From: a virus
Direction: 5' to 3' (one strand)
IMG/VR virus record: IMGVR_UViG_3300012009_000128
Location: 1 to 43,575 of that record
DNA: 43,575 bases
The first letter of the stretch is position 1. The number at the start of each line of letters is the position of its first letter. The translations under genes and the position numbers were made by a program. Positions 5,336 through 39,211 of the stretch are shown here, piece by piece. The notes under the pieces were generated by a model. It was not told where the DNA came from, ran no database searches, and saw nothing but the letters and a program-made list of their open reading frames with translations.

Positions 5336-6370
5336 CTATGTCATGCCGTCGTTGGCAATTTCTGCATCTTCAATGTAGCGCCGGGGCATCGACAGACTCG
5401 ACCATCCACCGGCTTCTTGCAGGCGGATGACATCCACCTTATCCGCCCAGTATGTTGCCCAATAGTGACGGCAGTCATGTGGGCTAAGTTTATCCAGGCC
5501 GATCTTTGCGCCCAGATTGCGGACCCGGCGACGTATTGATCGCGTGCTCATTCCAGCATCGCTAAGTGTGCCGTCTTTGCGGCTACTGCGCAGCAGCGGC
5601 CCGACGGCCAGCGCATCTCCTGAATTGAACCAGGCTCGCAACGCGCGCATGGTATCGGCGCTCAGCTTATGCGTTTGGGTTTTGTCCACCTTCGGACGGT
5701 AAAAGCGCATCTCGCCGGCCTTCAGATCGAATTCCGCCACCTGGAGCCGGGTGACTTCACCAACACGTAGACCGTGATCCAGCAGCAGGCACATCAGCAG
5801 CGCATCGCGCCGACCCTGTGGAGTGTCAGGCTGGTGTTTCAGATCACGGGCCTGATCTGCACCGATATGCACCGGATCGGCCTTTTTGCGGCCCCGGCGG
5901 GTTTGTGAGCGCCGCTCATCAAGGTGGTTAGCCTCTTTACGGCTGTAGCCGCTCACTGATTTTATCAAGGCCAACTCCTGGGCATCGAGTATGCCGGCCT
6001 TGACCGCTAGCCCTGCGTAGGTTTTGATCGTAGAGAGTCGCACATTAATGCTGCCCACAGCATCGCCCTGCGTGACCATCCAGTTACGAAAGCCTTCGAC
6101 CAGGCCCCAGGTCACGCCCCGCCAGGCTGTCGGATCGTGTTGCAGCATATCAGCCTGTATGGTCAGGTATGCGTCGGAGGCATCGGCCAAGAAATCCGCG
6201 AACCGTGCCAGGTCTGCCGTCTGCCGGCGAATAGTGTTGTCAGCCTTGCGGCTGAGGTAGTCTTCGAAAACAGATGCACGCGCATGATGACTGGCGACCT
6301 GGCCAGCCAGTTCGAGCGCGCTGATTTGATCGTCATCATCCCGGAGTGGGACCAGTGAATCACGTGTCAT
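5336..6370 (-). CDS. int: tyrosine recombinase (phage integrase)
   Basis: A 344-residue member of the tyrosine recombinase family. The N-terminal half is a core-binding helical domain (YLSRKADNTIRRQTADLARF, then LSTIKTYAGLAVK). The catalytic domain shows the conserved set: Arg in LRVGEVTRL near residue 200, HDCRH near 297-301, GGW near 322-324 and the nucleophile Tyr in RRYIED near 332. All needed residues are present, so it should be active in site-specific integration and excision of the phage genome or in resolving multimers. It is transcribed away from the accessory genes and ends with the unknown gene at 4909. No attP core could be identified. XerC/D-like multimer resolution is the main alternative. 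Confidence 0.92.
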   Translation of the reverse strand: MTRDSLVPLRDDDDQISALELAGQVASHHARASVFEDYLSRKADNTIRRQTADLARFADFLADASDAYLTIQADMLQHDPTAWRGVTWGLVEGFRNWMVTQGDAVGSINVRLSTIKTYAGLAVKAGILDAQELALIKSVSGYSRKEANHLDERRSQTRRGRKKADPVHIGADQARDLKHQPDTPQGRRDALLMCLLLDHGLRVGEVTRLQVAEFDLKAGEMRFYRPKVDKTQTHKLSADTMRALRAWFNSGDALAVGPLLRSSRKDGTLSDAGMSTRSIRRRVRNLGAKIGLDKLSPHDCRHYWATYWADKVDVIRLQEAGGWSSLSMPRRYIEDAEIANDGMT

Positions 6371-12505: not shown

Positions 12506-13435
12506 TCACCCTTCGTTATCTCTCTCATATTGGTCTAACATTCCACGTAGCTCATCATCGTCAAGCAAATCCCACAGCGTCAAAGGCGAACTCGGTTGGC
12601 TAGATGATTTAAGGCTATAGGGAGACTCAAAACCATAGGAAACAGGCAGAAATCTTACAATAGCAAACTGAGGAAAATGTGGAATATATTCCAGTCTTTG
12701 CTTTATCTCAATGGGTTCATGTAAATTGGGCGTGAGGTACCCTAAAAACGCTTTTATTGCCCCTTCAGTAAGAGCTATAGTATTCTCCACATTAATCGCA
12801 TTCCAAATTCCTTCAAATTCATTATAGTTCTTAGCAAACCGGCCCTTCAAACATTGAGGGTAGCTACTGTAAAATGGTTCGTGTCTTCTATGCAGATTAA
12901 ACGCCTTGAAAAGCTGAACCTGAAGCTCTCGAATTGCCGGTATATTATCGTTATCAACCGCCTTATTTATATCGATTTTGCTGTGAAATTGCATGTCCAA
13001 TAACGTAGGCTTCATTCGAAGAATAGCTCTGATATCGGGGAACTGCGGATCATCCAACACTACCCGCGCTGCTTCATTTAGTGCCCATATCGTAAAACGA
13101 TAGTCAACAATAATCGATGGAAAAGGATCGTAGCGAATATCTCCTTCAGAGTATAACGATAGATGCTCACGTATTTGCTGAAGCGTAGGCATTCTTGTCT
13201 TTGGCAAGTAGCCAGCAAGCCCCCTCCAGTATTTCTCTTCCACATACGAAATTCCCAGCACTTTCGCCAGAATACTCAAGTTTCTAGCACTAGGGATATA
13301 CTGATTAGTTTCCCACTTACTTATCAATGCATGATCTCCTAATCTTTCACCTTCTTTCCAGAAACCTTCAACGACATCCATTTGCGTGAATTCTTTAGCA
13401 AGCCTGATCTCTTGAATGAGTTCTCCTAATGACAT
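12506..13435 (-). CDS. XRE-family regulator with MmyB-like sensor domain
   Basis: A 309-residue regulator. Residues about 3-70 are a Cro/CI helix-turn-helix (LGELIQEIRLAKEFTQMDVV, then ISKWETNQYIPSARNLSILA). From about residue 105 the sequence SIIVDYRFTIWALNEAARVV matches the start of the ligand-binding domain seen in MmyB-like regulators, a PAS-like fold proposed to bind fatty-acid-like ligands. The C-terminal tail is acidic. The promoter just upstream has four copies of CAACTAGTTG around it, so it very likely represses itself. It is the first gene of a unit with 11692. The DNA-binding call is strong; the ligand is unknown. Confidence 0.8.
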   Translation of the reverse strand: MSLGELIQEIRLAKEFTQMDVVEGFWKEGERLGDHALISKWETNQYIPSARNLSILAKVLGISYVEEKYWRGLAGYLPKTRMPTLQQIREHLSLYSEGDIRYDPFPSIIVDYRFTIWALNEAARVVLDDPQFPDIRAILRMKPTLLDMQFHSKIDINKAVDNDNIPAIRELQVQLFKAFNLHRRHEPFYSSYPQCLKGRFAKNYNEFEGIWNAINVENTIALTEGAIKAFLGYLTPNLHEPIEIKQRLEYIPHFPQFAIVRFLPVSYGFESPYSLKSSSQPSSPLTLWDLLDDDELRGMLDQYERDNEG

Positions 13436-25003: not shown

Positions 25004-25309
25004 CTATGCCGCCGGGTCGTAGCCCAGGGCCTCGACCAGCGCCTGGAAGGCGTCGCCGTCGCGGTCGTCGGCGTCGGCCAGATAGCGGGCGGCCAGTTCT
25101 GCCGCTTCGACCAGGCGCTGGTGGCGCTGCACGAACATCCGCAGCTGCTTTGTAGCCAACTCGGCCTCCCCAGCCAGGCCGTCGAGAAGCTCCTGCTGCT
25201 CGAACATCCGGCGCTTGATTTCGACCTGATCGCGCTTCATGGCGTTGACCAGCGCGTCATGATGATCGGGAATGCCGGACTCGTAGGGCATTGGTGTATC
25301 GGGCATCAT
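25004..25309 (-). CDS. helical early protein
   Basis: A 101-residue mostly helical protein (KRDQVEIKRRMFEQQELLDG, AAELAARYLADADDR). No known family. Its ATG overlaps the stop of the upstream gene as ATGA, so the two are translated together. Probably a small accessory factor of early phage growth. Confidence 0.55.
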   Translation of the reverse strand: MMPDTPMPYESGIPDHHDALVNAMKRDQVEIKRRMFEQQELLDGLAGEAELATKQLRMFVQRHQRLVEAAELAARYLADADDRDGDAFQALVEALGYDPAA

Positions 25310-25623
25310 TTACTCCAGTTCTCGCCGCGCTGCACGTACAACGTGGGCGTGCCTTCGTGGTCAACGCCGGTCGTCAGCCTGGCCACATCCTCTCCGCGCC
25401 GTTTGAAGTACCGGGCAAGAGCCGAACAGGCTGAGCCAGCCGCGCGCCGCGTCCCGAAGGGGATGGCGAGCGCTGCGCTGCCGTTCGTTTGCTCTAAGCG
25501 GAGGGATACATCCAGGTATAGCTGCCAGTACTTTCCCGGGCTGTTGCCGTGGCGTTCGGGCGGCACCTCGTGCGCCCGAACCTCTCGTATTTGACCCCAG
25601 GGGGCCTTGCCGTTAGCCGGCAT
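25306..25623 (-). CDS. first protein of the early operon, unknown
   Basis: A 105-residue basic protein with a predicted strand-rich start (KYWQLYLDVSLRLEQ) and a short helix (GSACSALARYFKRRGEDVA) before a final strand (PTLYVQRG). AAGGAGT precedes the ATG. It is the first protein gene after a leader of about 410 nt that begins at the promoter near 26068 and contains the tmRNA-like element. Being first in the early operon, it could be a host-takeover or anti-defence protein; nothing in the sequence proves that. Confidence 0.55.
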   Translation of the reverse strand: MPANGKAPWGQIREVRAHEVPPERHGNSPGKYWQLYLDVSLRLEQTNGSAALAIPFGTRRAAGSACSALARYFKRRGEDVARLTTGVDHEGTPTLYVQRGENWSK

Positions 25624-25657: not shown

Positions 25658-25683
25658 GAGGGGCCTGGGCATTCAGGCCCCTC
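25658..25683 (-). other. leader hairpin before the first early gene
   Basis: A 10-bp perfect stem (GAGGGGCCTG/CAGGCCCCTC) with a 6-nt loop, 35 bases before the first ATG. No U-tract. Confidence 0.7.
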
Positions 25684-25726: not shown

Positions 25727-25808
25727 TGGACCAGGGCGGACTCGAACCGCCGTCCAGAGCGTATTGGCGCGTGATAGTCGCCACGCCCCGTCGAAACCTG
25801 TCTGGCCC
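25727..25808 (-). ncRNA. miniature tmRNA-like tRNA domain (82 nt)
   Basis: The minus strand begins GGGCCAG (25808-25802) and ends CTGGTCC plus A (25734-25727), a 7-bp acceptor stem with a G3:U70 pair and A73, the alanine identity set of tmRNA and tRNA-Ala. GGTTTCGACGGGG (25798-25786) matches the conserved D-loop-like start of tmRNA. GGAC then a T-arm (GGCGG, TTCGAGT, CCGCC) matches its 3' end. Only 30 nt separate the halves, with a 5-bp hairpin (GCGTG/CACGC), so there is no tag-coding or pseudoknot domain. CCA is not encoded (ACTGG follows). It lies in the untranslated leader of the early operon and could be released by RNase P and Z. It may be a deletion relic, an integration-site remnant, or a decoy for SmpB, AlaRS or the ribosome. 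Confidence 0.65.
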
Positions 25809-25827: not shown

Positions 25828-25855
25828 AGCCCCGATGGATAACGGCGTCGGGGCT
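25828..25855 (-). other. hairpin upstream of the tmRNA-like element
   Basis: An 8-bp stem (AGCCCCGA/TCGGGGCT) with a 12-nt loop in the early-operon leader. It may help fold or process the leader. The rest of 25856-26039 holds no gene I can support. Confidence 0.5.
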
Positions 25856-26039
25856 ATCCTCTTCAGTAGCACACGCCGTCCGGCTCGCGCCGGAAGTTGT
25901 ATTCGGTTGTGAAGGTGCTGTGACCCTGGGGAGAAACAAAAAGCGCCACCCCCGGTGAGCGTATCACCGGCTATGGCGTCTTATGGCATCTGCGTTCCCC
26001 AATAGGGCCTCCAGTTGATTTAAATGACTTACACTCTGA

Positions 26040-26068
26040 ATTATATAACTTCTTATATAAACCATCAA
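26040..26068 (-). promoter_or_regulatory. promoter of the long minus early operon
   Basis: Minus strand TTGATG (26063-26068), 17-bp spacer, TATAAT (26040-26045). It fires away from the XRE promoter at 26120, giving a divergent control region. Confidence 0.75.
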
Positions 26069-26119: not shown

Positions 26120-26149
26120 TTGACTTCCTTTATAAAGGACACCTATAAT
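26120..26149 (+). promoter_or_regulatory. XRE promoter with palindromic operator
   Basis: TTGACT (26120-26125), 18-bp spacer, TATAAT (26144-26149). The spacer holds the perfect palindrome TCCTTTATAAAGGA (26126-26139), a likely binding site for the regulator encoded just downstream. Confidence 0.8.
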
Positions 26150-39150: not shown

Positions 39151-39211
39151 ATGCACTCGATCAGGTGATGGCCTGGTATTCAGGCACCGGGTTCGACTCC
39201 CGGCGGGCGCA
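39151..39211 (+). other. tRNA T-arm-like module B
   Basis: GGGTTCGACTCCCGGC (39190-39205), identical to module A in 16 bases, followed by GGGCGCAC. A hairpin GCCTG/CAGGC precedes it. It lies between the minor head gene and the scaffold gene. No full tRNA can be folded. Confidence 0.45.

Follow-up and report, generated by a model that had tools for sequence, protein, structure and literature searches.

Almost all bacteria have a system for ribosome rescue, and the locus described here raises the question of what a phage might gain from an RNA that resembles the tRNA-like end of tmRNA and brings no message of its own. The DNA is IMG/VR record IMGVR_UViG_3300012009_000128, and its whole stretch of 43,575 nucleotides is referred to as the window in the following. 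This 43.6-kb virus contig encodes an integrase, a DNA methyltransferase, a terminase, a portal protein and a major head protein, and the phage looks temperate. An earlier note had placed a miniature tmRNA-like RNA on the minus strand at 25727-25808; these coordinates and all listed parts proved exact, with seven of seven acceptor pairs and five of five T-stem pairs in place. The parts are:

25727-25808, minus strand: mini-tmRNA that has nothing but the tRNA-like domain, its mature 5' end lying at 25808 and A73 at 25727 (RF00023 and relatives)
25802-25808, minus strand: 5' strand of the acceptor stem, GGGCCAG, with the G3 of G3:U70 at 25806; 7/7 pairs with 25734-25728
25790-25795, minus strand: TTCGAC, conserved, the D-loop region without a D stem (sequence and RF00023 match)
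25756-25789, minus strand: 34-nt P2 helix with apical hairpin, replacing the mRNA-like domain and pseudoknots (minimum-free-energy fold; P2 covariation in relatives)
25735-25755, minus strand: GGAC and T arm GGCGG/TTCGAGT/CCGCC (sequence, pairing)
25728-25734, minus strand: 3' strand of the acceptor stem, CTGGTCC, with U70 at 25730 (pairing check)

Read from 25808 to 25727, the order on the minus strand is GGGCCAG, ACAGGT, TTCGAC, 34 nt, GGAC, the T arm, CTGGTCC and A73; the segment between TTCGAC and GGAC is, hence, 34 nt long rather than the 30 nt that had been given for the joint of the two halves. Pair 3:70 is G:U, and both alanine identity elements claimed before, G3:U70 and A73, are present. 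CCA is not encoded in the window, where CTG follows A73; the RNA measures 82 nt to A73 and 85 nt with the three CCA positions counted.

In a comparison of the window with all 4227 Rfam families, RF00023 (tmRNA) was the sole match above cut-off, covering 25808-25724 with 53.5 bits against the curated cut-off of 47 and an E value of 2e-18 computed over the window and all of these families. The alignment spans model positions 1 to 374, of which about 300 are deleted, so that the four pseudoknots PK1-PK4 are absent from the window RNA, as is a tag frame with its resume codon, there being only the 34-nt linker. The proposal of a tmRNA tRNA-like domain devoid of tag domain and pseudoknots is, thus, borne out by the covariance model that had been suggested as a check; ARAGORN, suggested alongside it, called neither a tRNA nor a tmRNA at this RNA. 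All features expected of the tRNA-like domain of tmRNA are found, namely the 7-bp acceptor stem, G3:U70, A73, TTCGAC, GGAC and the T arm. Assignment to tRNA (RF00005) is contradicted by the lack of an anticodon arm, of a D stem and of an ARAGORN tRNA call, and assignment to the permuted or mitochondrial tmRNAs (RF01849-51, RF02544) by the 5' half preceding the 3' half in the window.

The predicted fold of the 82 nt consists of the acceptor stem, a single long arm and the T arm. A z value of only -2.0 makes folding energy by itself a weak argument, so that the weight falls on the covariance model and on relatives. The P2 helix of the window RNA pairs at 8/8 positions, in line with the class, in which a P2 of 7-8 bp directly follows TTCGAC. 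The apical part, GCGACTATCACGCGCC, departs from the class motif AAARCC...hairpin...GGA, which is not required of class members because it occurs in most of them, not all. The window holds at 25808-25727 (minus strand) a complete tmRNA tRNA-like domain in which tag frame and pseudoknots are replaced by one 34-nt hairpin.

To find such relatives, a first pattern was used that specified nothing beyond TTCGAC, GGAC after a short gap, and the T loop; it gave 63 stretches in IMG/VR, while a second pattern gave at least 120 matches there; a pattern specific to the window sequence had 0 matches. Requiring a paired acceptor stem and a paired T stem left at least 136 loci with at least 109 distinct sequences, a few of which are isolate or genome loci; these are minimum figures, taken from contigs that are in part redundant, and the search motifs bias what is visible. 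Since the search itself prescribed TTCGAC, GGAC and the T loop, these are no evidence of conservation, whereas the acceptor stem was left free, so that counts for G3:U70 and A73 are unforced. Of the 109 distinct sequences among the matches listed, 108 have G:U at 3:70 and all 109 have A73, and 92 of the 109 have a length of 80-85 nt with the CCA positions counted (mode 82). RF00023 scores above cut-off in 29 of 31 sampled records, and none of these 31 has a full-length tmRNA match. Taken together, mini-tmRNAs form, as judged from their sequences, a large phage class with at least 109 distinct members in many phages.

A chance match or an assembly artefact was considered in view of the window being an IMG/VR contig for which no close relative was found. 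The first pattern was run through 85,000 bacterial and archaeal genomes (257 Gb) and yielded 35 stretches, only 3 of which are real, with fully paired stems, G3:U70 and A73; the other 32 fail in the stems, in G3:U70 or in A73. One of the three stands on the same contig as a viral locus (L085 and L031) and one has the same sequence as a viral locus (L104 and L061), the third being L075. That only 3 of 35 matches in 257 Gb combine paired stems with G3:U70 and A73 excludes chance, and the same figure serves both as a negative control and as evidence that the class belongs to phages. Together with the E value of the window match and with the same architecture in the complete genomes of five isolated Streptomyces phages, this refutes the artefact reading for the class and leaves it practically no probability.

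A further search for longer linkers (43-73 nt) gave five matches, one of which (L065) was dismissed as chance, and the other four (L066-L069) appear real at 98-126 nt. Three of these (L066, L068, L069) are 116-126 nt long, and 98 nt is the length of L067, L140 and L153; overall, the longer tRNA-like-domain RNAs have linkers of 43-74 nt. Some of them could represent a transition from the full tmRNA to the short form, whereas others may just have a longer P2. A few of the mini-tmRNAs are miscalled by ARAGORN. Its tmRNA calls at L117 2976-3318, L153 11236-11879 and L175 5905-6228 were judged false, as they lack a proper 5' domain or a known tag; such full or permuted calls are annotation artefacts in which the 3' half of a mini-tmRNA is combined with a spurious 5' half.

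Covariation was examined on anchored sequences, because a MAFFT alignment misaligned the acceptor stem, and P2 was counted from the base after TTCGAC and the base before GGAC moving inward, in 48 listed sequences less than 75% identical. In the first seven pairs of P2, 86% of cells are paired in register, compared to 38-43% when the strands are slid by one or two bases; sequences sharing kinship, these counts are not independent events. The first pair is seen as G-C, A-T, T-A and C-G in this set, and direct compensation is evident between neighbouring sequences, for example between ATCCGTG/CACGGAT (L119) and ATCCATG/CATGGAT (L157). The part above P2 is, in most members, AAARCC followed by a small hairpin and GGA. 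The relatives of conserved length with compensatory changes that had been proposed as a check are, thus, found in other phages, the length being nearly constant. Acceptor pairs 4-6, like P2, vary freely, whereas 3:70 is G:U in 48 of the 48 listed sequences. This near-invariance beside freely varying pairs argues that charging is under selection, and the picture accordingly shifts, on sequence grounds, away from a passive sponge for SmpB and towards a competitor that is active and charged. A short tag frame (in-frame GCN...stop) occurs in 22 of 103 listed linkers versus 27 when shuffled and is, thus, not above chance.

The same constancy bears on the idea, also raised by the earlier note, that the RNA is a deleted ssrA relic or the attachment-site fragment of an integrating phage. 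It is true that ssrA serves phages as an integration site and that they carry its 3' end along (PMC11915505), and the window encodes an integrase. Yet, the integrase lies about 19 kb from the RNA, which argues against an attP fragment, both halves are present together with a paired linker, the loci fall into at least 35 contexts with no neighbour protein in common, and length, G3:U70 and A73 are held across the 109 listed distinct sequences where a relic would decay. The relic explanation is, hence, largely refuted and very improbable.

The surroundings of the RNA in the window comprise:

5336-6370, minus strand: integrase (phrog_216, E 1.6e-23), about 19 kb from the mini-tmRNA
25306-25623, minus strand: first ORF of the leftward operon, 105 aa, without family match
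25658-25683, minus strand: 10-bp hairpin GAGGGGCCTG/CAGGCCCCTC in the interval from mini-tmRNA to first gene (sequence, fold)
25828-25855, minus strand: hairpin AGCCCCGA...TCGGGGCT immediately upstream of the mini-tmRNA (sequence, fold)
25941-25981, minus strand: strong leader hairpin followed by CTTTTTG, terminator-like, between promoter-like site and mini-tmRNA (sequence, fold)
26040-26068, minus strand: promoter-like site TTGATG-17-TATAAT, about 230 nt upstream of the mini-tmRNA (10/12 consensus, consensus match only)
26120-26149, plus strand: divergent promoter-like site TTGACT-18-TATAAT (11/12 consensus, consensus match only)

The RNA, thus, sits between a divergent promoter-like pair and the first leftward ORF (25623), in a strongly hairpinned leader; RecT-like and AAA proteins are encoded to its left and a DnaB-like helicase to its right. 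Of the description as the untranslated leader of an early operon, the leader position finds support in the promoter-like site at 26068-26040 (minus strand) ahead of the ORF, and "early" is a label suggested by the promoter and ORF layout. The terminator-like hairpin implies that expression of the mini-tmRNA may depend on read-through or antitermination. Queries with the RecT-like, DnaB-like and AAA proteins found no relatives of the window phage among viral contigs, its portal protein had no relative among the phages searched, and all matches of its terminase and AAA protein were less than 60% identical. Elsewhere in the window, a weak mascRNA-like (tRNA-like) match at 39153-39210 (plus strand; 30 bits, below the cut-off of 42.5) is probably due to chance.

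Across the class, the contexts comprise tRNA arrays, replication operons and capsid operons. At 19 of the 109 loci among the matches listed, two or more tRNA genes lie within 500 bp, and at 80 there is none within 1 kb; other recurrent neighbours are the major capsid protein, prohead protease and portal, or YqaJ exonuclease, DnaB-like helicase and endonuclease VII. In eight cases (L116, L133, L134, L148, L009, L028, L038, L143) the mini-tmRNA directly precedes the major capsid gene, which is an unexpected location for an RNA directed against the host. Inside tRNA arrays, mini-tmRNAs are carried by five isolated Streptomyces phages with complete genomes, none of them annotated as tmRNA:

LuckySocke: L105 2501-2581
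Shaeky: L106 2501-2582
GiJojo: L111 2501-2581, the gene overlain by the annotated hypothetical protein gp44
pSt2308: L112 2501-2581
BRock: L107 2491-2571

Phage tRNA-like genes often answer host tRNA attack, and the RNA could have another target: it could be an AlaRS/EF-Tu sink, could distract host nucleases that cleave tRNA or tmRNA, or could act in cis on processing or attenuation of the operon leader. The structured leader of the window, with the RNA following the terminator-like hairpin, is in keeping with such a reading. However, the neighbourhoods include capsid and portal genes as well as helicase genes and tRNA arrays and are too varied for a cis element; a trans-acting RNA that was gained or moved many times fits them better. 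Moreover, the core that has been kept, with TTCGAC and GGAC but without an anticodon arm, belongs to tmRNA rather than to tRNA, and a target of this kind is distinctly unlikely.

No SmpB gene was found in 28 sampled records or in the window, and the window record is also without a full-length tmRNA and without a tag frame. Any action of the RNA would, therefore, depend on the SmpB, AlaRS and EF-Tu of the host; as many records are fragments, the absence of SmpB and of full-length tmRNA is only suggestive. In Tunturiibacter phage Tunturi_4 (L109 1118-1465 and 1501-1532), an annotated RF-1 domain peptide chain release factor gene adjoins an RNA that, from its sequence, appears to be a permuted tmRNA, so that this phage unusually combines two ribosome-rescue elements. 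An ArfB-like factor next to the mini-tmRNA, an idea prompted by this phage, was rejected as a regular partner, no RF-1 domain occurring in any other of 33 records. A mini-tmRNA-bearing phage contig (L023) further contains a Pistol ribozyme match at 13302-13377 (minus strand; 69.6 bits, cut-off 34.5).

In the best explanation, to which we give slightly better than even credence, the gene encodes a "CDS-less" tmRNA of the tRNA-like domain (TLD) only, belonging to a large phage class and acting as an alanine-charged competitor that damps host trans-translation. The RNA would be made as part of the leader transcript of the leftward and probably early operon, would be excised by RNase P and 3' processing, and would then be acted on by the host CCA-adding enzyme, AlaRS, SmpB and EF-Tu in the same way as host tmRNA. 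The Ala-mini-tmRNA.SmpB.EF-Tu complex would compete with host tmRNA for SmpB and stalled ribosomes; offering no resume codon, it would let tagging and normal recycling fail, and host trans-translation would be damped during infection. It is expression, charging and this role that we infer for the window phage. A TLD alone suffices for ribosome entry, as an Ala-TLD.SmpB.EF-Tu complex has been crystallised on a stalled ribosome (described in PMC3968760), and in vitro SmpB and a TLD fragment together allow polyalanine to be made without a template (Shimizu and Ueda 2006, cited in PMC3929946). From both results it follows that a phage TLD should compete for SmpB and stalled ribosomes and, when charged, should accept a nascent chain that has nowhere to go. 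Counting against the competitor are the statement of Hudson et al. 2014 (PMC4131195) that inhibition does not require a chargeable molecule, the capsid-operon and tRNA-array contexts, which are not obviously early, the apical hairpin of the window RNA, which is off the common AAAGCC...GGA motif, and the lack of a close relative of the window phage in the searches.

The polyalanine result is also compatible with an active, tagless rescue, in which the charged mini-tmRNA, entering stalled ribosomes with SmpB, would take the nascent chain onto alanine and eject the broken mRNA, the chain ending by drop-off, hydrolysis or repeated alanine addition; this would help the phage and involve no block of the host. 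The strict G3:U70 and A73 imply that charging matters, mitochondrial tmRNAs that lack a tag frame have been kept alongside SmpB (PMC11915505), and the 19 of 109 listed loci among tRNA genes are as expected of translation helpers. On the other hand, there is no known normal release step in the absence of a stop codon, and the effect reported in E. coli for the TLD-only form of mycobacteriophage DS6A is inhibition of endogenous tmRNA (Mao 2009, RNA Biol 6:355, as repeated in PMC11915505). Such rescue is, hence, unlikely, if worth keeping in mind. More doubtful than either this or another target is a phage-specific RNA family of alanine-charged, template-less ribosome ligands that would use host SmpB, enter stalled ribosomes, possibly repeatedly, and add one or more non-templated alanines, so that tagging by tmRNA would give way to release without a tag or to tailing with alanine; such a ligand agrees better than a simple SmpB sponge with the strict G3:U70 of nearly all members.

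The decoy, by competition with host tmRNA, is judged the most likely role and has already been proposed in the literature for the DS6A RNA, a molecule similar to which is reported to inhibit tmRNA strongly whether chargeable or not, perhaps via SmpB titration (Mao et al. 2009, cited in PMC4131195). The class is probably used to jam the host rescue system. One phage, DS6A, was previously known to have an RNA of this rescue-inhibiting type, and the present evidence suggests a common phage strategy that annotation has missed: ARAGORN finds almost none of these RNAs, and the tmRNA database lists just nine unpermuted tag-less forms ("Standard, no CDS") among 97,179 entries (Nawrocki et al. 2025, PMC11915505). 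With several members in cultured phages of Streptomyces, a harmless laboratory host, shut-off of trans-translation by phages and the need for alanine charging become directly testable.

The earlier note knew of no phage RNA of this kind; however, Hudson et al. 2014 list DS6A as "TLD only" (PMC4131195; also in PMC11915505). By description, the window RNA appears to be a CDS-less phage tmRNA of the DS6A type (tmID 11587), which is likewise phage-encoded, with little beyond the tRNA-like domain and without a tag frame. Compared by description only, the difference is that DS6A was reported as a single case, whereas the present class has about 109 distinct sequences (a lower bound) in many phages. 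A literature search, with most subscription journals outside its reach, found no description of a wide phage family of such RNAs. Jakobid mitochondrial tmRNAs without an mRNA-like region (RF02544) are also reduced to the tRNA-like part, but they are organellar, usually have permuted genes and co-occur with a mitochondrion-targeted SmpB (PMC11915505), and the family matched by the window is RF00023 instead. The approximately 65-bp Mallomonadaceae plastid tmRNAs, too, have the tRNA-like part only and are organellar, not phage. Full-length phage tmRNAs (Bxz1, Wildcat, Phabba, phage G; permuted in Melnitz) share the phage origin and the same tRNA-like domain, while theirs comes with tag frame and pseudoknots, the annotated Phabba tmRNA having 397 nt. 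Similar in build are engineered TLD fragments (Bessho 2007, 2CZJ; Neubauer 2012, 4ABR), in which the 5' and 3' parts of tmRNA are joined by a short loop and which are described as binding SmpB and, when charged, entering stalled ribosomes with EF-Tu; these are laboratory constructs, whereas the phage RNAs are natural and have a longer, covarying P2. With DS6A, the kind of RNA was already known; the size, the sequence constraint and the spread of the class appear new.
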